From positions 33,029-97,028 of the forward strand of contig JAIXKS010000058.1 of assembly GCA_026928325.1 (NCBI GenBank): a DNA stretch of 64,000 nucleotides, given 5' to 3'. Positions within the stretch are counted from its first letter, which is position 1, and every line of letters starts with the position of its first letter. Both the position numbers and the translations under genes were made by a program. Positions 1,877 to 16,179 of this stretch are shown one piece after another. The DNA is from Chitinophagales bacterium. Lineage in GTDB: Bacteria; Bacteroidota; Bacteroidia; Chitinophagales; Saprospiraceae. The notes under the pieces were generated by a model, which was not told where the DNA came from, did not search any database, and worked only from the letters and a program-made list of their open reading frames with translations.

Positions 1877-3562
1877 ATGGCGAAATCAAAGAAAGAAATC
1901 AAAGAAAAGCCCATTGAAGTTACCCTTTGGGAAGCTGCCAATAAACTAAGAGGAAGCGTAGAGCCTGCCGAATATAAACATGTTGTATTGGGACTCATTT
2001 TCCTAAAATTTGCCAGCGATAAATTTGAGGAACACCGAGCCAAACTCATAGCCGATGGCAAAGAAAAATACATTGAAATGCCAGAGTTCTACAATATGAA
2101 CAATGTGTTCTTTTTGGAAGAAACAAGCCGTTGGAGTTTCCTCATAAAAAAATCGAAACAAAACGACATTGCCCTGCTCATAGATACTGCCCTACACACC
2201 ATCGAGAAAAATAACAAAGCACTGAAAGGTGCTTTGCCCGACAATTACTTTTCTCGTTTGGGTTTGGATGTTACCAAATTAGCTTCTTTACTCGATACCA
2301 TCAATGATATTGACACCACCAAAGATCCCAAGCAAGATGTAGTAGGTAAGGTGTATGAATATTTTCTATCGAAATTTGCATTGGCAGAAGGAAAAGGCAA
2401 AGGAGAGTTTTACACACCCAAAAGTATCGTCAACCTCATTGCCGAAATGATAGAACCCTACAAAGGCATTATCTACGACCCTGCTTGCGGTTCGGGTGGA
2501 ATGTTTGTGCAATCCATCAAATTTATTGAAGCCCATCACGGCAACAAAAAAGAAATTTCCATTTACGGACAAGAATACACCAACACCACTTACAAATTAG
2601 CAAAGATGAATTTGGCCATTAGAGGCATTAGTGGAAACTTGGGCGAAAAAGCTGCCGATACCTTTGCAGACGACCAACACAAAGATTTAAAAGCCGATTA
2701 TATAATGGCAAATCCTCCTTTTAACCAAAAAGATTGGCGTGCCGAAAACGAACTCACAGACGACCCTCGCTGGCGAGGCTACAATGTACCACCTAAAAGC
2801 AATGCCAACTATGCTTGGATTTTGAACATGGTGAGTAAACTTTCCGAAAACGGAGTAGCAGGTTTTATCTTGGCGAATGGTGCATTGAGTGGCGGTGGCG
2901 AAGAATATAAAATACGCAGAAAGTTGATTGAAAATAATTTGGTAGAAGCGATTTTGGTATTGCCACGCAACTTGTTTTACACCACCGACATCAGCGTTAC
3001 TCTTTGGATTGTAAACAAAAACAAGAAAGCACAGAGCAAAAAAGTAGGAGAAGAAATCCGCAATTATCGGGACCGTGAAAAAGAAATCCTCTTTATGGAT
3101 TTACGCCAAATGGGCGAACCGTTTGAGAAAAAATACACACAATTTTCGGATGCTGATATTCAAAAAGTAGTCGGCACTTATCATCAATGGCAGACTTCTG
3201 GGTATGCTCCTGGGTATGATGAAGCTCCTGCTTCATCAAGTAAAACTCCAGCTTCATCAGATATAGGTAAAGCTGGAGCTTTACTCAACCCAGCTTTACT
3301 CAACCCAGATCTACTCAACCCAGCTTACCAAGACATTCCAGAATATTGCTATTCCGCTTCCTTTGATGAAGTAGCTAAGAAGGATTTTTCATTAGTACCG
3401 AGTAAATACATTGAGTTTGTAAACCGAGATGAGAATATTGATTTTGATGAAAAGATGAAAGCTCTGCAAAGTGAATTTGCCGAACTATTAAAAGCCGAAG
3501 CAAAATCAACAACTGAATTACTAACTGTTTTTAAAGATTTGGGCTATGAAATCAAACTATAA
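1877..3562 (+). CDS. hsdM: Type I restriction-modification system, DNA methyltransferase subunit HsdM
   Basis: A 561-residue N6-adenine methyltransferase subunit of a type I R-M complex. The N-terminal helical domain (about 10-150, including LWEAANKLRGSVEPAEYK) is followed by the SAM-binding motif DPACGSGGMF at 201-210 and the catalytic motif NPPF at 279-282. The C-terminal SASFDEVAKKDFSLVPSKYI is typical of HsdM. Residues 440-483 are an in-frame low-complexity insert (Ser/Pro/Ala-rich, then LLNPA-type pentapeptide repeats) that family members lack and that is encoded by a palindromic DNA repeat. The stop overlaps the hsdS start by 17 nt, so the two are probably translationally coupled. Confidence 0.95.
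   Translation: MAKSKKEIKEKPIEVTLWEAANKLRGSVEPAEYKHVVLGLIFLKFASDKFEEHRAKLIADGKEKYIEMPEFYNMNNVFFLEETSRWSFLIKKSKQNDIALLIDTALHTIEKNNKALKGALPDNYFSRLGLDVTKLASLLDTINDIDTTKDPKQDVVGKVYEYFLSKFALAEGKGKGEFYTPKSIVNLIAEMIEPYKGIIYDPACGSGGMFVQSIKFIEAHHGNKKEISIYGQEYTNTTYKLAKMNLAIRGISGNLGEKAADTFADDQHKDLKADYIMANPPFNQKDWRAENELTDDPRWRGYNVPPKSNANYAWILNMVSKLSENGVAGFILANGALSGGGEEYKIRRKLIENNLVEAILVLPRNLFYTTDISVTLWIVNKNKKAQSKKVGEEIRNYRDREKEILFMDLRQMGEPFEKKYTQFSDADIQKVVGTYHQWQTSGYAPGYDEAPASSSKTPASSDIGKAGALLNPALLNPDLLNPAYQDIPEYCYSASFDEVAKKDFSLVPSKYIEFVNRDENIDFDEKMKALQSEFAELLKAEAKSTTELLTVFKDLGYEIKL
3198..3323. repeat. REP-like palindromic repeat cluster inserted in frame in hsdM
   Basis: In order: two copies of CTGGGTATG (3198-3206, 3210-3218); a perfect hairpin of GATGAAGC (3218-3225) and GCTTCATC (3230-3237) with loop TCCT; a long stem of GTAAAACTCCAGCTT (3240-3254) with AAGCTGGAGCTTTAC (3270-3284), one mismatch; and three TACTCAACCCAG copies at a 15-bp period (3282, 3297, 3312). 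CTGGGT on the left and ACCCAG on the right are complementary, so the block is symmetrical. The same architecture occurs in hsdR at 5652-5746. Confidence 0.85.
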
Positions 3563-4691
3563 ACGATTAGGCGATTATATTCAAAAAGTGGATATCCGAA
3601 ACAGAGACTTGGAGGATTTGCCATTGATGGGTTTGAGTATTACCAAAGAATTTATTTCTTCTATTGCTAATACTATAGGAACGGATATGTCAACTTATCG
3701 AGTTATTGAAAGAAATCAATTTGCTTATGGACCAGTAACTTCAAGAAATGGCGATAAAATTACCATCGCTTTATTTTACGATTTTGATAAAGCATTAATT
3801 TCACAAGCTTATACACCTTTTGAAGTAACAGACCTCAATAAAATAGACCCTGAATATTTGATGATGTGGTTTCGCAGACCAGAGTTTGACCGTTATGCAA
3901 GATTTAAAAGTCATGGAAGCGCGAGAGAGATTTTTGATTGGGATGAAATGTGTAATGTTGAACTCCCTATCCCATCCATCGAAAAGCAAAGAGCCATCGT
4001 AGCCGAATACAACACCATCCAAAACCGAATAGACCTCAATAACCAACTGATACAGAAATTAGAAGAAACCGCACAGACGATTTATAGGGAGTGGTTTGTG
4101 GATGGAATTGATAAGGAGAATTTGCCGGAGGGGTGGGAAATAAGAGCTTTTACAAGTGCTGTGAAATTTAGTGGAGGTGGAACACCTGATACAACAAATG
4201 AATTATATTGGAATGGCCAATATCCCTTTTTTACACCGGCAGATATTTCTGATAGTTACTATTGCATAGAAACAGAAAAAACTGTTTCAGAACTAGGGTT
4301 GAAAAATAGCAGCACAAAATTGTATCCTAAGAATACAGTTTTTGTTACAGCAAGAGGAACAGTTGGGGCGATTGCTTTAGCCGGTAGTGATATGACAATG
4401 AACCAAAGTTGTTATGCAATTAGTGGTCAATATCTTTTCTTTACTCATCAACTCACTATAGAAACAATTAAGAAATTGAAAAATGAAGCAGTTGGTGCTG
4501 TATTCGCAGCATTAGTTACGAAAGATTTTGATTCACAGAATGTAATTTATCCTACTGAAAAGTTACAAGCAGCATTTGATACAAAAGTTTCTGTGATTTA
4601 TGAATTGATTTTAGTAAAATCAAAAGAAAACCAAAAATTGGAAGAATTGAAAGGGTTACTTCTTTCTAAATTAGCAACAATAGAAAATTAA
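3546..4691 (+). CDS. hsdS: Type I restriction-modification system, specificity subunit HsdS
   Basis: A 381-residue specificity subunit that would determine the split DNA target recognised by the HsdM/HsdR complex. It shows the usual two half-repeats: the first target-recognition domain ends in a conserved helix (PIPSIEKQRAIVAEYNTI, then LNNQLIQKLEETAQTIYREWFVD), and the second starts LPEGWEIRAF and ends with a helix containing ENQKLEELKGLLLSKLA. Family members are often 380-450 residues, so the length is normal. The start lies inside the end of hsdM. A 249-bp gap holding a decayed transposase separates it from hsdR. Confidence 0.92.
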   Translation: MKSNYKRLGDYIQKVDIRNRDLEDLPLMGLSITKEFISSIANTIGTDMSTYRVIERNQFAYGPVTSRNGDKITIALFYDFDKALISQAYTPFEVTDLNKIDPEYLMMWFRRPEFDRYARFKSHGSAREIFDWDEMCNVELPIPSIEKQRAIVAEYNTIQNRIDLNNQLIQKLEETAQTIYREWFVDGIDKENLPEGWEIRAFTSAVKFSGGGTPDTTNELYWNGQYPFFTPADISDSYYCIETEKTVSELGLKNSSTKLYPKNTVFVTARGTVGAIALAGSDMTMNQSCYAISGQYLFFTHQLTIETIKKLKNEAVGAVFAALVTKDFDSQNVIYPTEKLQAAFDTKVSVIYELILVKSKENQKLEELKGLLLSKLATIEN

Positions 4692-4716: not shown

Positions 4717-4925
4717 ATGCATCACCGCAGGTCCATCCGATTAAAAGGATATGATTATTCGCAAGCAGAATTGTATTTTATTACGATTTGTTGTCAGTAT
4801 AGGGCGTGTTTGTTTGGTAAAATTGTTGATGGGAAAATGATATGCAACGATGCAATGAACAATCGTATCCAACCATTTCACAATACATGATTGACAATCC
4901 TGCAAAATGGATGAAAGATGAATGA
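4717..4925 (+). pseudogene. Decayed RAYT (REP-associated tyrosine transposase) remnant between hsdS and hsdR
   Basis: From ATG 4717 the frame reads HRRSIRLKGYDYSQAELYF then ITICCQYRACLFG, the typical N-terminus of a RAYT subgroup common in Bacteroidota, before it stops. The sequence from about 4874 to 4925 reads ISQYMIDNPAKWMKDE and stop in a shifted frame, which is the typical C-terminus of the same family. The catalytic middle, including the HxH motif, is deleted. The fragment belongs to a different RAYT subgroup from the one inside hsdR. It fills most of the hsdS-hsdR gap. Confidence 0.8.
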
Positions 4926-4940
4926 TAAATTTAATATAAT

Positions 4941-7900
4941 ATGAAATTCACCGAGGCACAATTAGAAAAAGCATTTGCTGAACTTTTGGCACAAGAAAAC
5001 TATCCGCACTCTTGGGGTGAAACCTTGGTGCGTGCGACTGATGATGTGCTGATAGAAGACGACTTAAAACGCTTTTTGATCAAACAATACCAAGCTGAAA
5101 ACTTGACAGAAACAGAAGCAAAGTCCATCATTTTGCAACTGAAAAGTTTGCCTGCATCGGATTTATACGAAAGCAACAAAAAGTTTATCAAATTACTTTC
5201 GGACGGATTTATTCTCAAAAGAGAAGACCGCAACCAAAAAGATATTTACATCAACCTGATAGATTTTTCAGGCTTGGAAAGGCATCGGATTGATAAAGAA
5301 AATTTACCTTTCATTTCTGCTGAAGCTGAAGTGAAATACGATACTTCTACAACCCACAGGGACAACAACATTTATCGTTTTGTAACTCAACTTGAAATCA
5401 CTGGCAACGAAAAACGCATACCGGACGGCATGATCTACATCAATGGTTTGCCCTTGGTAGTTTTTGAATTTAAAAGTGCCATTCGGGAGGAAGCTACTAT
5501 ACACGATGCTTTTGTACAGCTGACTGTTCGCTACAAACGAGATATTCCACAACTATTTGTATATAACGCTTTTTGTGTCATCAGCGATGGTGTAAATAAC
5601 AAAGCCGGTTCATTCTTTGCTCCGTATGATTTTTTCTACGCTTGGCGACGTCTGGGTGAGAGGAAGTCGCTGGGTGAGAGGAAGCTCCAGCTTCATTCTC
5701 TTAGCGACAAGCTGGAGCTTGCCGAAACCCAGCTTGTCGAAACCCAGAGAGAAGCCCAAGGGATAAACTCAATGTTTACACTGATTCACGGAATGCTCAA
5801 TCAACAAATCTTACGGGATATTATTCGCAACTTCATCTACATTCCTGACAATAGCAAGAAAGAAGAAAAAATAGTATGTCGCTATCCACAGTATTACGCA
5901 GCACGTGCTTTGTATGAAAACATTCAAAAAGCCCAAAAACCCGAAGGTGATGGAAAAGGCGGTACTTATTTTGGTGCTACCGGTTGCGGAAAAAGTTTCA
6001 CTATGCTATACCTGACAAGGCTATTGATGAAAAGCGAATACTTTGAAAGCCCGACTATTGTTTTGATTACCGATAGAACAGACTTAGACGACCAACTCTC
6101 TTCGCAATTCATCAATGCAAAAGGATTTATCGGTGATAACACTGTAGAAAGTGTAGAAAGTCGTGCCGATTTGAGAACCAAACTTCAAGGCAGACAAAGC
6201 GGTGGTGTTTTCTTAACGACGATACACAAATTTACAGAAGATACCCAGCTATTGACAGAACGCAACAATGTCATTTGCATTTCAGACGAAGCGCACAGAA
6301 GTCAGACAAATCTCGACCTAAAAGTAAAAATAACCGAAACTGGTGTGAAGAAAACTTTTGGTTTTGCCAAATACCTTCACGACTCTTTACCCAATGCAAC
6401 TTATGTAGGTTTTACCGGAACACCCATAGATGCTACCCTTGATGTATTCGGAAAAGTGGTAGATGCATATACCATGACAGAATCGGTAAGAGATGAGATC
6501 ACAGTTAGAATCGTTTATGAAGGACGAGCTGCAAAGGTAGCTTTGAATAATAGTGAATTAGAAAAAATAGAACGTTACTATGAAGAGGTTGCCGAGTTGG
6601 GATCAAATGAATATCAGATCGACAAAAGCAAACAGGAAACGGCAAATATGTATGCCATTCTTGGTGATCCTGACCGTTTGAAAGCCATTGCAGAAGATTT
6701 TGTTCAGCATTATGAAAACAGAATTTCAGAAGGAGCCACCGTAAAAGGCAAAGCAATGTTCGTGAGCAGCAGCCGTGAAATAGCTTATGAATTATACAAA
6801 AACATCATTTCATACCTAGCCACTCGAACCTCCAGCTTCGAGCAAAAAGAAAACTCCCACCATATCGACACCACCAACTACGCTCAATATTTCACTAAGA
6901 GTTTTGGATACCCCGAAGAATGGCATCGTAGAGATTTGCCGCATAGAAATAAAGAAAATTTGATTCAGTCTATTACATTTCGACTTGCTGACAGTTTACC
7001 ACAAAGTGTATTAAAGGATATTGAAGCAGAAATCAAGAAATTTTCTAGTGAGAAACGGGATATTGAAAAAAGGAAAAAATATGAATATTGGCTTGATAAA
7101 GGCTTAGGTTGTTGTGCATTAGCTAAAAGAGAAGTCGCCCAAGTTGTTCAAGATGCATTATTCCATCATAATGGAGACAAATATGATTTACTAGCTTGGA
7201 GCATTATGCCAAATCATGTACATGTTTTAATAAAAACAAAATCAGACTTACCTCGTATAATACAATCTTGGAAATCATTTACAGGAAAATGGGCATTAAA
7301 GAACAATAAAAAATTGAATTTAGGAATAGATGATGATGCCAAAGAATTTTGGATGCCTGAATATTGGGATAGATTTATAAGAGATGAAGACCATTTTAAT
7401 AATGCGATTAGATATATTTTAAATAATCCGGTAAAAGCAAAATTGCCTGAGTCCCATATTGCATATTTATATCGAGGCATGATACAAGAACTACAAGGAG
7501 GGACCCAACAAAAGCTACAACCCACGCAGGTAAGGATGGTTATGACAAGAAGCAAAGACGACCCTAAAGAACTTTGGGATATGTTAGGTACTTCAGAAGA
7601 TCGCAAAGAACTTGATCGACAGTTTAAAAATGAAAAATCCAATTTCAAAATCGCCATTGTCGTAGATATGTGGTTGACCGGCTTTGATGTTCCATTTTTG
7701 GATAGCATTTATATAGACAAACCGATCCAACAACACAACCTCATTCAGACCATTTCAAGAGTAAACCGAAAGTTTGAAGGAAAAAACAAAGGTTTGGTAG
7801 TGGATTACATTGGCATCAAAAAGCAAATGAACTTGGCTCTTGCTAAATACAACAAAGGCGATGAAGATAACTTTGAAGATATCGAACAGTCTTTAGTAGT

Positions 7901-8873
7901 GGTAAAAGACCACTTGGATTTATTGGCTAAGCTGATGCACTCCTTTGATAATACAAAGTATTTCAACGGTACCACTATTGAGCAACTCAACACACTGAAT
8001 TTTGCAGCAGAATATGTACAACAGACTAAGGATCTTGAAACCCGTTTTATGGGTTTAGTAAAGCGACTAAAAGCCGCTTATGATATCTGTACAGGAAGCG
8101 AAAAATTGACGCAGGAAGAGAGAGATTACACCCATTTTTATATGGCAGTTCGTTCCATCATTTTCAAACTGACCAAAGGCAATGCACCCGATACAGCTCA
8201 GATGAATGCGAAAGTTCGGGAAATGATCAAAGATGCCTTGCAAAGTGACGGTGTAGAAGAAATCTTCAAACTTGGTGAAAAAGGTGAAAGCGAACAAGAC
8301 ATTTTTGATGAAGATTATTTAGCTAAAATTGAAAAAATTAAATTACCTAACACAAAAATTAAACTACTACAACAACTATTAGCAAAAGTAATCGGTGAAA
8401 TCAAAAAAGTTAACAAAGTAAAAGGCATTGACTTCACTAAGAAAATGCAAGATATTGTAGAACGCTATAACAACCGTGATGTCAACGATATTCTGAGAAG
8501 CGAGGTGTATGAAGATATGGCAGCAGCTTTGACCAACTTGATTTGGGATGTTCATAAAGAATTTAAAGCTGGTGACGAATTAGGAATTAACTTCGAAGAA
8601 AAGGCATTTTACGACATATTGAAAGATCTGTGTAAAAAATACGATTTTAGCTATCCTGACGACAAACTCATAGATTTATCCAAAGCAGTAAAGGTCATCG
8701 TGGATAGTCAAGCAAAATTTCCGGATTGGAACAAACGAGATGATATCAAATCAGCATTAAAAGTGGAGTTGATTTTGATTTTAGATGAGTTTGGTTATCC
8801 TCCAGTAGAACGAGATGAAGTGTATGTTGAGATTTTTGAACAAGCCGAAAACTTTAAAAAAAATAGATTATGA
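4941..8873 (+). CDS. hsdR: Type I restriction endonuclease subunit HsdR with an embedded RAYT transposase domain
   Basis: A 1310-residue HsdR, the ATP-dependent translocase/nuclease of type I R-M. Visible in order: PD-(D/E)xK nuclease (D162, E176-F-K178), SF2 Walker A GATGCGKS (345-352), DEAH box (449-452), motif III YVGFTGTPI, motif IV KAMFVSSSREIAYELYKNI (ending about 624), then MVMTRSKDDPKELW (866 on), the conserved block FDVPFLDSIYIDKPIQQHNL, and a helical C-terminal domain. Two in-frame inserts interrupt it: a palindrome-encoded stretch near 237-270 and a whole RAYT domain at about 627-863. Without them the length would be close to 1040, normal for HsdR. No stop or frameshift occurs, so a single chain is predicted; whether it is active is unknown. 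Confidence 0.93.
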   Translation: MKFTEAQLEKAFAELLAQENYPHSWGETLVRATDDVLIEDDLKRFLIKQYQAENLTETEAKSIILQLKSLPASDLYESNKKFIKLLSDGFILKREDRNQKDIYINLIDFSGLERHRIDKENLPFISAEAEVKYDTSTTHRDNNIYRFVTQLEITGNEKRIPDGMIYINGLPLVVFEFKSAIREEATIHDAFVQLTVRYKRDIPQLFVYNAFCVISDGVNNKAGSFFAPYDFFYAWRRLGERKSLGERKLQLHSLSDKLELAETQLVETQREAQGINSMFTLIHGMLNQQILRDIIRNFIYIPDNSKKEEKIVCRYPQYYAARALYENIQKAQKPEGDGKGGTYFGATGCGKSFTMLYLTRLLMKSEYFESPTIVLITDRTDLDDQLSSQFINAKGFIGDNTVESVESRADLRTKLQGRQSGGVFLTTIHKFTEDTQLLTERNNVICISDEAHRSQTNLDLKVKITETGVKKTFGFAKYLHDSLPNATYVGFTGTPIDATLDVFGKVVDAYTMTESVRDEITVRIVYEGRAAKVALNNSELEKIERYYEEVAELGSNEYQIDKSKQETANMYAILGDPDRLKAIAEDFVQHYENRISEGATVKGKAMFVSSSREIAYELYKNIISYLATRTSSFEQKENSHHIDTTNYAQYFTKSFGYPEEWHRRDLPHRNKENLIQSITFRLADSLPQSVLKDIEAEIKKFSSEKRDIEKRKKYEYWLDKGLGCCALAKREVAQVVQDALFHHNGDKYDLLAWSIMPNHVHVLIKTKSDLPRIIQSWKSFTGKWALKNNKKLNLGIDDDAKEFWMPEYWDRFIRDEDHFNNAIRYILNNPVKAKLPESHIAYLYRGMIQELQGGTQQKLQPTQVRMVMTRSKDDPKELWDMLGTSEDRKELDRQFKNEKSNFKIAIVVDMWLTGFDVPFLDSIYIDKPIQQHNLIQTISRVNRKFEGKNKGLVVDYIGIKKQMNLALAKYNKGDEDNFEDIEQSLVVVKDHLDLLAKLMHSFDNTKYFNGTTIEQLNTLNFAAEYVQQTKDLETRFMGLVKRLKAAYDICTGSEKLTQEERDYTHFYMAVRSIIFKLTKGNAPDTAQMNAKVREMIKDALQSDGVEEIFKLGEKGESEQDIFDEDYLAKIEKIKLPNTKIKLLQQLLAKVIGEIKKVNKVKGIDFTKKMQDIVERYNNRDVNDILRSEVYEDMAAALTNLIWDVHKEFKAGDELGINFEEKAFYDILKDLCKKYDFSYPDDKLIDLSKAVKVIVDSQAKFPDWNKRDDIKSALKVELILILDEFGYPPVERDEVYVEIFEQAENFKKNRL
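5652..5746. repeat. REP-like palindromic repeat cluster inserted in frame in hsdR
   Basis: Two 15-bp direct copies of CTGGGTGAGAGGAAG (5652-5666, 5670-5684), then the stem AAGCTCCAGCTT (5682-5693) and AAGCTGGAGCTT (5709-5720), then two near-copies of GCTTGCCGAAACCCA (5717-5731, 5732-5746). Left CTGGGT is complementary to right ACCCAG. The core stem is the same as that in hsdM. It encodes about 34 extra residues between YAWRR and GINSMFTLIHGML, where HsdR proteins normally have a short linker. Confidence 0.85.
6819..7529 (+). mobile_element. RAYT (Y1/IS200-like) transposase domain embedded in frame in hsdR
   Basis: HsdR residues 627-863 (711 nt, a multiple of three) match a full REP-associated tyrosine transposase. 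EEWHRRDLPH begins at about 659, followed by TFRLADSLPQSVL, the metal-binding HxH motif in MPNHVHVLI (His759, His761), SWKSFTGKWA, YWDRFIRDEDHF, and the likely catalytic tyrosine Tyr825 in RYILNNPVKA. RAYTs are HUH-type single-strand transposases that act on REP hairpins. A hairpin CTCGAA/TTCGAG (6823-6842) at the left edge carries the CTCCAGCTT core also found in the hsdM and hsdR repeats. The domain sits in a loop of the helicase after motif IV, in the same orientation and frame as hsdR. Confidence 0.9.
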
Positions 8874-13347: not shown

Positions 13348-16179
13348 TTAAATATATCTCGCTGTATGCGAATTTTTAACCTGCTTTAATCCTTCCGGTT
13401 TCCCTTCATATAATAGTTGACCTCCGCTTTTTCCACCTTCTGGTCCTAAGTCTATAACCCAATCTGCTGCTTGAATCACACTCGTATTATGTTCGACAAT
13501 TAAAATGCTGTGGCCATTTTCTACTAAAGCATTAAAGGCTTCCATCAATTTATTGATGTCATGAAAATGAAGCCCTGTCGTAGGTTCGTCAAATATGAAA
13601 AATATTTTTTTGGATTGATATTCTTTGACTAAGTACGATGCCAACTTAACACGTTGTGCTTCTCCACCTGATAGTGTACTCGAAGCTTGACCTAATTTGA
13701 TATATCCCAATCCGACATCAAACAAGGGTTGTATTTTGTTGATGATGGTTTTTTGTTTTTTAAAAAATTCTAAAGCTTCTTCTATACTCATTTCTAGCAC
13801 ATCGTAAATATTCTTGTCTTGATAAGTAATTTCTAGTACTTCATTTTTAAATTTTTTACCATTACAAACCTCACAAGGTATATTCACATCTGCCAAGAAT
13901 TGCATCTCTATGGTAATATTACCTTCACCTTTGCAAGTGTCACATCGACCTCCATCTACATTAAATGAAAAATGTTTGGGTTCTAATCCCTTGATTTTTG
14001 CTGATGTTTGACTTGCAAATAATTTTCTGATTTCATCATAAGCTTTGACATAAGTTACCGGATTAGACCTAGAGGTCTTCCCTAGTGGATGCTGATTAAT
14101 CATTTCCACTTCCTTGATTTGTCGATAGTCGCCAGCGATTTCACCTAAATTGGTGATGGAACTATCTTGACTGCCGTCTATGATTGATTTTAATAACGGA
14201 TATAGCGTATGTTGTACTAAGCTGGTTTTACCCGAACCAGAAACTCCCGAGACTACGGTTATGGCATGCAGTGGTATAGTGACATCGATATCTTTTAAAT
14301 TGTGTTGTCTTGCGCCTTTGATATATATTCTATCGACGAGCTTTCTTTTGTGTTGTGGAATTGTGATTTGCTTTCTTCCTGTTATGTAATCAGCTGTGAT
14401 ACCATGATTCTCACCTTGAATAAAATCTTGGTATTTTCCGGCGAAAACCAGATCTCCTCCGTGAATGCCAGCCATGGGACCGATATCTATAATGTAGTCT
14501 GCATGTCGAATGACGGTATCTTCATGCTCGATAACAATCACTGTATTGCCTTGGTTGCGTAGATTTTTGAGTACGCCTACCAATTTTTCTGTATCTCGCG
14601 GATGTAATCCTACACTCGGTTCATCTAATATATATAAGGAATTCGTGAGATTACTCCCTAACGTACGTGTAAGATTGATACGTTGGGTTTCGCCACCGCT
14701 CAGTGTGCTAGCTATTCGATCCATCGTCAGATATTCTAGGCCTATATCCACCATCGTTTGAAGCCTGTTTTTTATCTCTGTAAGGATGCGCTCTGCAATG
14801 GTAGCATCATGTTTATCTAAAACTAAGTTCGTAAAAAAGTCAAGCAATTCATTAACCGGCAATTGAGTTAAAGTACCGATATCATAGCCTCCTACTTTTA
14901 TGTATAGCGCTTCTTTACGCAATCGACTACCTTTGCAAAGATCGCAGGTTGTCTTACCGCGATACCTGGATATCATCACCCGATTTTGTATCTTATAGGA
15001 TTCTTGTTCTAACATGCCAAAGTAGGTGTGGATACCATCAAACCAGGCATTCCCATTCCATAAGATGGCCTGTTGATCTTCTGTTAAATCCTTGTAGGGT
15101 TTATGGATAGGAAGATTGCTTTTTTCGGCATATTTGATGACTTCTGCATTCCATAATTTTCCTTTTTCGCCTCTCCAGCAGGCTATGACTTCCTCATAGA
15201 TGCTGAGATTTTCATTAGGAATAACAAGATGTGGATCAATACCGATAATTTTTCCATATCCTTCACATTTAGGACAAGCACCATGAGGATTATTAAAATT
15301 AAAGAGATGTGGCACAGGTGACATAAATTCAATACCGTCTGCTTCAAATCTATTGTTGAAATACATCACATGACCATCAAAAGTATCGATATAGCAAGCG
15401 CCTTCAGATTCTGCAAATGCAAGTAAAACAGAATCCGCAACCCGTTTTTTATTTTCTTCATCTTCATTGACAACAAATCGGTCAATTATAATTTTAAAGT
15501 CATAGGGTGATTGTTGAACCGAAATCTCTTTGTCGATGCTTTCATCTTCTGCTAAGTCCTGAATATTGAGCATCTCGCCATTGCGGATAACGCGGGTATA
15601 TCCCTTTTGCATCAATAAATCGAGCTCTTGCGCTATGGTTCTGTCATGCTTGCGCTGTAATGGAATCAATAGCTGAACTTTATTCCCTATTGGCAATCCA
15701 AATATATAATCTACAACATCGCTGACCTGATGCTTTTTGACCAATTGACCGGTAATCGGCGAATATGTTTTTCCGATGCGGGCGTATAAAAGTCTGAGCA
15801 AATCATAGATTTCTGTCATCGACCCAACAGTAGAACGCGCATTAGAATTGCTCACTTTTTGTTCTATTGCTATGGCTGGACTGATGCCTTTGATAAAATC
15901 TACTTCCGGCTTTTTCATTCTATCCAAAAATTGGCGAGCATAGGACGAGAGACTCTCTACGTACCTCCGTTGACCTTCTGCATATAAAGTGTCTATAATC
16001 AGAGAGGATTTTCCTGATCCAGATAGTCCTGTGACAACAACTAATTTATTTTTTGGAATAAATAACTCAATATTCCGCAGATTATTAGAGCGTGCTCCCT
16101 TGATATGGATATATTTTCTGAGTTGTTTTTTGTCCTCCTGACCTTCAATTTTTGTGATATCAGATGTATTAGATTTCAA
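13348..16179 (-). CDS. uvrA: Excinuclease ABC subunit UvrA
   Basis: A 943-residue UvrA, the damage-recognising ATPase of nucleotide excision repair that loads UvrB on DNA. It has two ABC modules: Walker A VVVTGLSGSGKSS (about 49-61) with signature LSGGETQRINL, and Walker A VVSGVSGSGKTS with signature LSGGEAQRVKL. CxxC zinc motifs are visible at CPKCEGYG, CDLCKGSR and CDTCKGEG...CEVCNGKKF. Length and domain order are normal. It is transcribed towards the parS-like sites, convergent with DUF4256 and divergent from fhs. Confidence 0.97.
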   Translation of the reverse strand: MKSNTSDITKIEGQEDKKQLRKYIHIKGARSNNLRNIELFIPKNKLVVVTGLSGSGKSSLIIDTLYAEGQRRYVESLSSYARQFLDRMKKPEVDFIKGISPAIAIEQKVSNSNARSTVGSMTEIYDLLRLLYARIGKTYSPITGQLVKKHQVSDVVDYIFGLPIGNKVQLLIPLQRKHDRTIAQELDLLMQKGYTRVIRNGEMLNIQDLAEDESIDKEISVQQSPYDFKIIIDRFVVNEDEENKKRVADSVLLAFAESEGACYIDTFDGHVMYFNNRFEADGIEFMSPVPHLFNFNNPHGACPKCEGYGKIIGIDPHLVIPNENLSIYEEVIACWRGEKGKLWNAEVIKYAEKSNLPIHKPYKDLTEDQQAILWNGNAWFDGIHTYFGMLEQESYKIQNRVMISRYRGKTTCDLCKGSRLRKEALYIKVGGYDIGTLTQLPVNELLDFFTNLVLDKHDATIAERILTEIKNRLQTMVDIGLEYLTMDRIASTLSGGETQRINLTRTLGSNLTNSLYILDEPSVGLHPRDTEKLVGVLKNLRNQGNTVIVIEHEDTVIRHADYIIDIGPMAGIHGGDLVFAGKYQDFIQGENHGITADYITGRKQITIPQHKRKLVDRIYIKGARQHNLKDIDVTIPLHAITVVSGVSGSGKTSLVQHTLYPLLKSIIDGSQDSSITNLGEIAGDYRQIKEVEMINQHPLGKTSRSNPVTYVKAYDEIRKLFASQTSAKIKGLEPKHFSFNVDGGRCDTCKGEGNITIEMQFLADVNIPCEVCNGKKFKNEVLEITYQDKNIYDVLEMSIEEALEFFKKQKTIINKIQPLFDVGLGYIKLGQASSTLSGGEAQRVKLASYLVKEYQSKKIFFIFDEPTTGLHFHDINKLMEAFNALVENGHSILIVEHNTSVIQAADWVIDLGPEGGKSGGQLLYEGKPEGLKQVKNSHTARYI

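Follow-up and report, generated by a model that had tools for sequence, protein, structure and literature searches.

What is a complete transposase doing, in frame, within the motor subunit of a restriction enzyme? The question is raised by a type I restriction locus in a 64,000-nt stretch of DNA from a Chitinophagales bacterium of the Saprospiraceae, the whole of which is referred to here as the window. To our knowledge the REP-associated tyrosine transposases (RAYTs) are conserved, usually single genes that confer no clear benefit. The hsdR-RAYT fusion gene (4941..8873, forward strand; assigned by its frame and by Pfam/NCBIfam matches) is one open frame of 1310 amino acids, and the original prediction of a continuous HsdR with an in-frame RAYT is thus borne out. 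Here we define the inserted unit, trace its occurrence and history, and weigh the possible reasons for its persistence.

A REPtron in the second RecA domain of HsdR

The fused HsdR has the architecture of a type I restriction motor subunit. Pfam matches comprise the HSDR_N nuclease (residues 3-228), the SF2 motor with SWI2_SNF2 (317-551), a T1R_D3-like domain and the C-terminal T1RH-like_C (972-1307), and the motor motifs are found at residues 345 (Walker A), 449 (DEAHR), 913 (TGFD) and 939 (SRVNR). Its partners hsdM (1877..3562, forward strand; N6_Mtase and HsdM_N) and hsdS (3546..4691, forward strand; Methylase_S), both assigned by open reading frame and Pfam, lie directly upstream and are intact in the window. 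EcoR124I-like HsdR proteins (2w00 and related entries) share the nuclease N-domain, the two RecA domains, the C-terminal domain and the motor motifs, but differ in having a RecA2 loop of ~30 residues where the fusion carries an insert of 238 codons.

The borders of this insert follow from alignment with an unfused homologue (L063) from a genome (G011) of the same family, whose matching HsdR pieces are 70, 82 and 80% identical to the fused protein. Homology ends at 'YKNII' and restarts at 'IKLIATRGQDD', which places the insert at codons 626-863 in phase 0 (6816..7529, forward strand), between helicase motifs IV and V. This confirms the site proposed originally, between motif IV and the MVMTRSKDDP block; the earlier extent of 711 nt (6819..7529) was right in being in frame and a multiple of three, but missed the first codon of what is, with its ends, a 714-nt element. 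The native loop of ~30 residues (RPEW...KPIER), a type of loop carried by the unfused HsdRs compared, is absent from the fusion, and because these residues were replaced by the unit the event was not a pure insertion.

The core of the insert (6900..7476, forward strand) is a Y1/HUH tyrosine transposase domain according to profile, sequence and fold matches. Y1_Tnp (PF01797) matches residues 746-828 with 29.3 bits against a cut-off of 23, while the NCBIfam model REP_Tyr_transpos (NF047646) matches residues 731-844 (E 2e-20) with 73.0 bits, and the insert taken alone with 76.4 bits, both under the curated cut-off of 80, which some embedded kin pass (for example L177 at 86.8 bits). The HUH motif H759-V-H761 (7215..7223, forward strand) and Tyr825 (7413..7415, forward strand; catalytic by homology), which stands in a Y-x-x-x-N-P context typical of RAYT/TnpAREP proteins, lie where they had been predicted. 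Both histidines and the tyrosine are invariant in 75/75 aligned RAYTs, embedded and stand-alone, in an alignment that is biased to good copies, as it consists of the window and 74/96 relatives picked by score and leaves out 22/96 (the lowest-scoring, plus L044). An AF2 model of the domain (pLDDT 81.8) has the fold of a Y1 REP transposase; its best Foldseek match, and the sole one below 0.001, is 4er8, a complex of the E. coli RAYT with a REP hairpin (E 2e-5, TM 0.39/0.54), which is also the top structure by sequence profile. A model of motor and insert together, built from 14 near-identical rows, was too poor to be used and was discarded (pLDDT 47.2, pTM 0.32).

The original prediction overlooked the REP ends of the RAYT as well as the in-frame REP pairs in hsdM and hsdR described below. 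In fused relatives, inverted REP hairpins stand at both borders of the insert and are translated in frame: the 5' end is CTGGG followed by a hairpin, read as LGxRSSSFE and variants, and the 3' end a hairpin followed by CCCAG, read as KQELHP[TS]Q and variants. In the window the 5' hairpin (6816..6842, forward strand; translated LATRTSSFE) has a decayed tag, CTAGC against CTGGG in most relatives, and the inverted 3' REP (7490..7529, reverse strand; translated ...KLQPTQ) is largely decayed, though intact in several relatives. Several fused relatives and a stand-alone copy (L052) thus show the arrangement REP-RAYT-REP, a REPtron, clearly; in the window it is recognisable but decayed. The insert resembles known REPtrons in its Y1 domain with HUH and Tyr and in the inverted REP hairpins at both ends. 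Known RAYTs, however, are described as separate genes where PMC3733652, PMC6006769 and PMC8266576 deal with them, whereas here the entire REPtron lies in frame within HsdR and, as detailed below, within other proteins, as one of their internal domains.

The gap between hsdS and hsdR holds a remnant resembling a second RAYT of another class (4717..4925, forward strand; recognised by eye only), apparently deleted, reading MHHRRSIRLKGYDYSQAELYFITIC... and then ...NPAKW in a different frame. At the same gap the fused locus L038 has a 357-codon frame (2011-3081) with the terminus ISEYIINNPAKWAEDKF.

Recurrence and history of the fusion

Used as a query against 84,980 species genomes, the insert retrieved 25 loci. 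The fusion recurs at an identical site in 16 of them (L038-L049, L051, L053-L055), making 17 with the window; its carriers belong to Bacteroidales, Cyclobacteriaceae, Prolixibacteraceae, Marinilabiliaceae, Akkermansiaceae and Rubritalea, and so to both Bacteroidota and Verrucomicrobiota; a 'recent event' therefore fails as a description of the fusion as such. A single intact frame is present in 14/17 fused loci including the window, the exceptions being a stop inside the RAYT (L044), a gene split over two frames (L051) and one cut by a contig end (L054). The remaining 9/25 loci do not have this fusion. Among them is the intergenic stand-alone copy from a member of the Saprospiraceae (L052), which belongs to the same RAYT clade as the HsdR inserts and has ends identical in type (CTGGG at 5983, CCCAG at 6705-6709), and we regard it as the strongest indication that the insert in HsdR is a discrete mobile unit.

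A search for HsdRs with and without the insert in other genomes found both, and the unfused ones compared carry the native type of loop. No other fused HsdR was among the matches listed for 60 relatives of the window genome, nor was one among those listed for 395 Bacteroidota genomes. A plasmid search gave one match with 30% identity over 73% of the query, and the viral contigs searched gave no match. Two further relatives may be mentioned: a planctomycete RAYT whose frame spans 400 codons or more (L059), and a related RAYT in a 328-codon frame directly downstream of an hsdS-like end (L109, G434), with tagged REPs also within the RAYT frame and HsdR- and methylase-like frames close by.

In a tree of the HsdR flanks (17 fused, 13 unfused; L098, with no usable HsdR, and the far L106-L108 having been excluded), fused and unfused proteins interleave, with five changes of which at least three are forced. 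Two unfused proteins, L063 and L093, are placed within a starred, mostly fused Bacteroidota group. Constraining the fused rows to one clade is rejected by the AU test (p 6e-33; 15 vs 10 rows, after further exclusion of L051, L054, L097, L101 and L104), and a single vertical origin together with HsdR was rejected accordingly. The inserts themselves form one clade (99*) in the RAYT tree, from which L141 had been excluded, with two or three stand-alone copies nested inside. Since the flanks reject one clade and the inserts form one, either hsdR alleles must have been exchanged or the unit re-inserted: all in all, one RAYT lineage would have entered hsdR long ago and later passed between its alleles or inserted anew. 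Insert and flank identities are correlated (rho 0.85 over 136 pairs). In one mosaic pair (L043/L044) a tract of 96-100% identity comprises the insert and ~335 nt of 3' flank, the other flanks being mostly 88-98% identical. Exact homing was considered for this pair and rejected, as the near-identical tract passes the insert, mainly on one side, and ordinary recombination fits as well.

The selective regime was assessed as dN/dS by simple counting, and with many dS values above 1 the figures are rough. For the insert, dN/dS is 0.038-0.115 in 10/16 pairs and 0.458 in one (dS 0.01), five pairs being saturated and not estimable; for the 5' motor part it is 0.008-0.090 in 13/16 pairs, three being not estimable. 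The insert is thus low in dN/dS and in most pairs less constrained than its flanks, evolving faster. The motor motifs are invariant across 14 aligned fused proteins, and the HsdR flanks of the fused alleles are, on these comparisons, under strong purifying selection.

REP hairpins in the hsd locus

Apart from its own ends, the embedded RAYT is accompanied by further REPs. One inverted pair (REPIN/BIME-like) lies in frame inside hsdR (5656..5755, with exact pattern matches at 5670-5692 on the forward and 5710-5732 on the reverse strand) and a second in frame inside hsdM (3210..3293, with matches at 3210-3232 forward and 3271-3293 reverse). A REP at apparently the same hsdM site occurs in Marinilabilia (L254, core at 14672). 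These translated palindromes, in frame in hsdM and hsdR under selection, are akin to Rickettsia palindromic elements. The only Rfam match in the window between 1800 and 9000 was sub-threshold, a microRNA model on the hsdM pair, and was taken as chance.

The tagged pattern CTGGGN{3,9}AGCTCCNGCT has four matches in the window and none in 100 shuffles, which, the pattern being derived from these loci, shows only that they are not background. Scanned through 8 of the 17 fused genomes it gave 32 matches, against none in two unfused genomes and one for a reversed control pattern. All 32 fall within the hsd locus and each is inside an open frame, be it hsdR, hsdM, a partial copy of hsdR or one frame without a name, and all 15 in the 4.2-Mb Rubritalea genome lie within 10 kb; because the pattern came from hsd-fusion loci, diverged REPs elsewhere would be missed. 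The partial hsdR copy in Rubritalea (L253, 5901-6422) has the same in-frame REP pair as its full hsdR, in the corresponding position. A core-only pattern, AAGCTCCNGCTT, matched 46 times across 10 genomes. Of these matches 17 lie in hsd loci; the other 29 resemble background, since the reversed control gives 22. The REPs are translated in at least two different phases; no fixed REP peptide is therefore conserved, and a role of the peptides as a conserved linker was ruled out. The confinement to the hsd locus could also mean that there is no transposition in the present hosts.

In-frame RAYTs in other host proteins

That HsdR is not the only host was first seen while tallying the RAYTs of fused genomes, which turned up a second HsdR subfamily (L132) and MetH (L141). 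In a census of Verrucomicrobiota, with at most 8 candidates scored per genome, RAYTs were found in 116 of 387 genomes, and among the 150 matches listed at least 50 have the RAYT in a frame of 438 or more codons. Among 49 long-frame loci examined, nine have the RAYT at the frame end, and the other 40 were scanned for host domains: 35 show a host family at E<=1e-8 and five do not show any. In 24/40 one host model is matched in two or more stretches, as it is in L176, there perhaps on one side only. The hosts include LeuRS (4), MetH (3), PriA (3), IspG (2), a RarA fusion (2), PglX (2) and hsdR (2), followed by ValRS, XseA, CarB, HypF, NspC and MvaD. That the host continues on both sides was checked from coordinates in LeuRS and IspG, and by eye in the remainder. 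The RAYT-bearing LeuRS is the only LeuRS over the cut-off in 4/4 genomes, and the RAYT-bearing IspG the only IspG in 2/2.

The RAYT is enclosed within the frame by exact inverted repeats, 14 nt or longer, in 27/40 loci and in none of the shuffles; several of these repeats are GTAG-type REPs. In one genome (G596) MvaD and PriA carry sister RAYTs (95*), the pattern that a jump from one gene to the other would produce. In-frame REP peptides accompany the RAYTs in a set of Verrucomicrobiota hosts comprising LeuRS, ValRS, MetH, IspG, PriA, XseA, CarB and MvaD (L177, L183, L186, L194, L195, L175, L180, L204, and further L202, L214, L212, L218, L221, L210, L205, L215), and several insertions in these hosts share their site across genomes.

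Bacteroidota carry such RAYTs in 73 of 395 genomes, with 10/97 rows in frames of at least 468 codons, including the window. The other nine comprise three in HsdR at a second site, of which L285 has the clean order HSDR_N, RAYT, SWI2_SNF2, two in DUF1156 proteins, one each with Eco57I, N6_N4_Mtase and RecG domains, and L280, which has no Pfam host and by eye resembles L282. Restriction and defence proteins are recurrent hosts (L280-L287, L132, L173, L192, L200, L209, L174, L182, L193), namely the second HsdR subfamily (L132, L173, L192, L283-L285), DUF1156 and N6_N4 methylases, Eco57I-type, PglX and DrmD-like proteins. For stand-alone kin the link to restriction loci is weak, with an HsdR- or methylase-like motif in 4/21 neighbourhoods.

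What maintains an embedded transposase?

The structure and borders of the unit, its conservation and the selection on it, the REPs bound to the hsd locus and the recurrence in essential single genes are matters of observation. The account that we consider probable, albeit with real room for doubt, is that a REPtron persists unspliced and in frame as a tolerated internal domain of HsdR and other working proteins, which are often transferred horizontally. A mobile REPtron, a RAYT gene between two inverted REP hairpins, would have lodged in a RecA2 loop of HsdR, where REP ends and RAYT would be translated as an internal domain without splicing. HsdR presumably stays functional enough to remain under purifying selection, and since the fused HsdR is so kept, the element would be a tolerated, protein-resident passenger; of the three options originally offered, the tolerated passenger in a surface loop is the best supported. 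REPtrons may insert into coding sequence as single-stranded units, through ssDNA transposition by the embedded RAYT, and would survive only where frame and host fold allow, which REP palindromes free of stops in several frames would make possible. The frame would then be kept by selection on the host, and the catalytic residues by selection on the RAYT, be it for mobility of the unit or for action on REP pairs in trans. The embedded RAYT would also have seeded REP pairs, in frame, into its own hsd operon, and its wider kin may act likewise in genes ranging from restriction and defence enzymes to LeuRS. Spread would rely mainly on hsdR alleles being transferred horizontally and exchanged by homology, restriction genes, which are often exchanged, being good vehicles that may benefit their rider. 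All enzymatic steps in this scheme are extrapolated from the RAYT family, as treated in the relevant parts of PMC8266576.

Some features sit uneasily with a clean passenger insertion, in that ~30 native residues were replaced and that, as read from the sequences, one RAYT carries a stop (L044) and another fusion is split between frames (L051). Moreover, because both REP ends are decayed in the window while the RAYT is intact, mobility of the window's own unit, itself doubtful, cannot be what preserves the RAYT there; its upkeep would need action in trans on REP pairs or a benefit to the host, and a purely neutral passenger should not retain its catalytic residues across two phyla.

Such a benefit is the essence of domestication, in which the HUH domain would serve the restriction enzyme by nicking or binding hairpins or ssDNA during translocation, by guiding restriction, or by rearranging hsd via the in-frame REPs. 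The conservation of all catalytic residues and the low dN/dS of the insert even where, as in the window, the REP ends have decayed speak for it, as do the confinement of REPs to the hsd locus and the recurrence of restriction and defence hosts (the second HsdR subfamily, PglX, Eco57I-type and DUF1156 methylases). However, some close HsdRs lack the insert and are interspersed with fused ones in the tree, the same RAYTs reside in LeuRS, MetH, IspG and CarB without an obvious shared job, the insert usually evolves faster than its flanks, and one fused allele is broken within the RAYT; we regard domestication as unlikely, if worth keeping in mind. Less probable still is a more ambitious variant, in which the fused protein would be one machine whose HsdR motor feeds DNA to the built-in HUH transposase, with REP movement in cis confined to the hsd operon and diversifying or marking it, and in which RAYTs would have evolved to live unspliced within proteins, essential ones and those of restriction, that shelter them and carry them along in horizontal spread.

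The opposite notion, that the fusion kills restriction and marks a decaying allele, can point to the stop in L044 and the split frame of L051, but faces 14/17 intact frames, the low dN/dS of the flanks, invariant motor motifs and the intact hsdM and hsdS of the window. It was one of the options first entertained, but given flanks under strong purifying selection and the motor motifs of 14 fused proteins it is unsupported for the family, and we hold it to be quite improbable.

Inteins with homing endonucleases are likewise nuclease-bearing mobile elements that lie in frame within conserved, often essential proteins. The insert resembles them in this respect, but lacks a splicing domain, stays in the protein, and has an HUH/Tyr enzyme instead of LAGLIDADG or HNH. 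Removal in the manner of an intein or intron, restoring a normal HsdR, would account for placement in essential single-copy proteins, and the portion of PMC4853749 concerned with IStrons provides a precedent for introns partnered by IS605-type transposases. Yet no Hint/splicing domain is among the Pfam matches of the fused HsdR at E<=0.001, no Rfam intron family was found in the window between 1800 and 9000 up to E 1 or in six further loci at the gathering threshold, and the frame is open over both junctions in 14/17 loci, which removal would not demand. Residues of the native loop are lacking at either edge of the insert, so that removal would not restore the native HsdR, and there is very little chance that this explanation holds. 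An assembly chimera or chance read-through, for which one might cite the metagenome-assembled origin of several loci, has practically no likelihood, because 16/25 loci show the same fusion with identical junctions in independent records, named strains included (Aquiflexum lacus, Prolixibacter bellariivorans, Marinilabilia salmonicolor, Rubritalea profundi).

A probable protein-resident way of life for RAYTs

In-frame REPs as such are already in print. The parts of PMC3733652 devoted to them describe intragenic in-frame REPs and Rickettsia palindromic elements in genes whose function is known, with Opitutus terrae (Verrucomicrobia) among the examples, as short and non-autonomous, adding 20-30 residues for most dimers and up to 82 in clusters, and PMC6006769, in its relevant passages, notes REPs within tnpAREP genes without loss of frame. 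The unit described here shares with them the insertion of palindromes in frame into genes, but while those elements carry palindromes only, the present unit brings its transposase into the host frame as well. Searches of the open full-text literature, which mostly leaves subscription papers and preprints outside its scope, brought up no paper describing a complete RAYT within HsdR or a different host protein, and the arrangement is apparently new, as originally suspected. A reason for caution is that length filters and annotation pipelines may drop such proteins: in the classification of PMC6006769, unexpectedly long TnpAY1 proteins were taken as gene fusions or annotation errors and left aside.

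Pairs of fused and unfused HsdRs that are ~80-90% identical, and a LeuRS with a transposase in its body, offer natural test cases. Restriction genes as vehicles provide a plausible route for the movement of RAYTs between genomes. The in-frame RAYTs in HsdR and in essential proteins suggest mobile genes that reside permanently inside working enzymes, and a RAYT class that stays in frame and unspliced within its host proteins, hairpin ends included, would occupy a place somewhere between a transposon, an intein and a protein domain.
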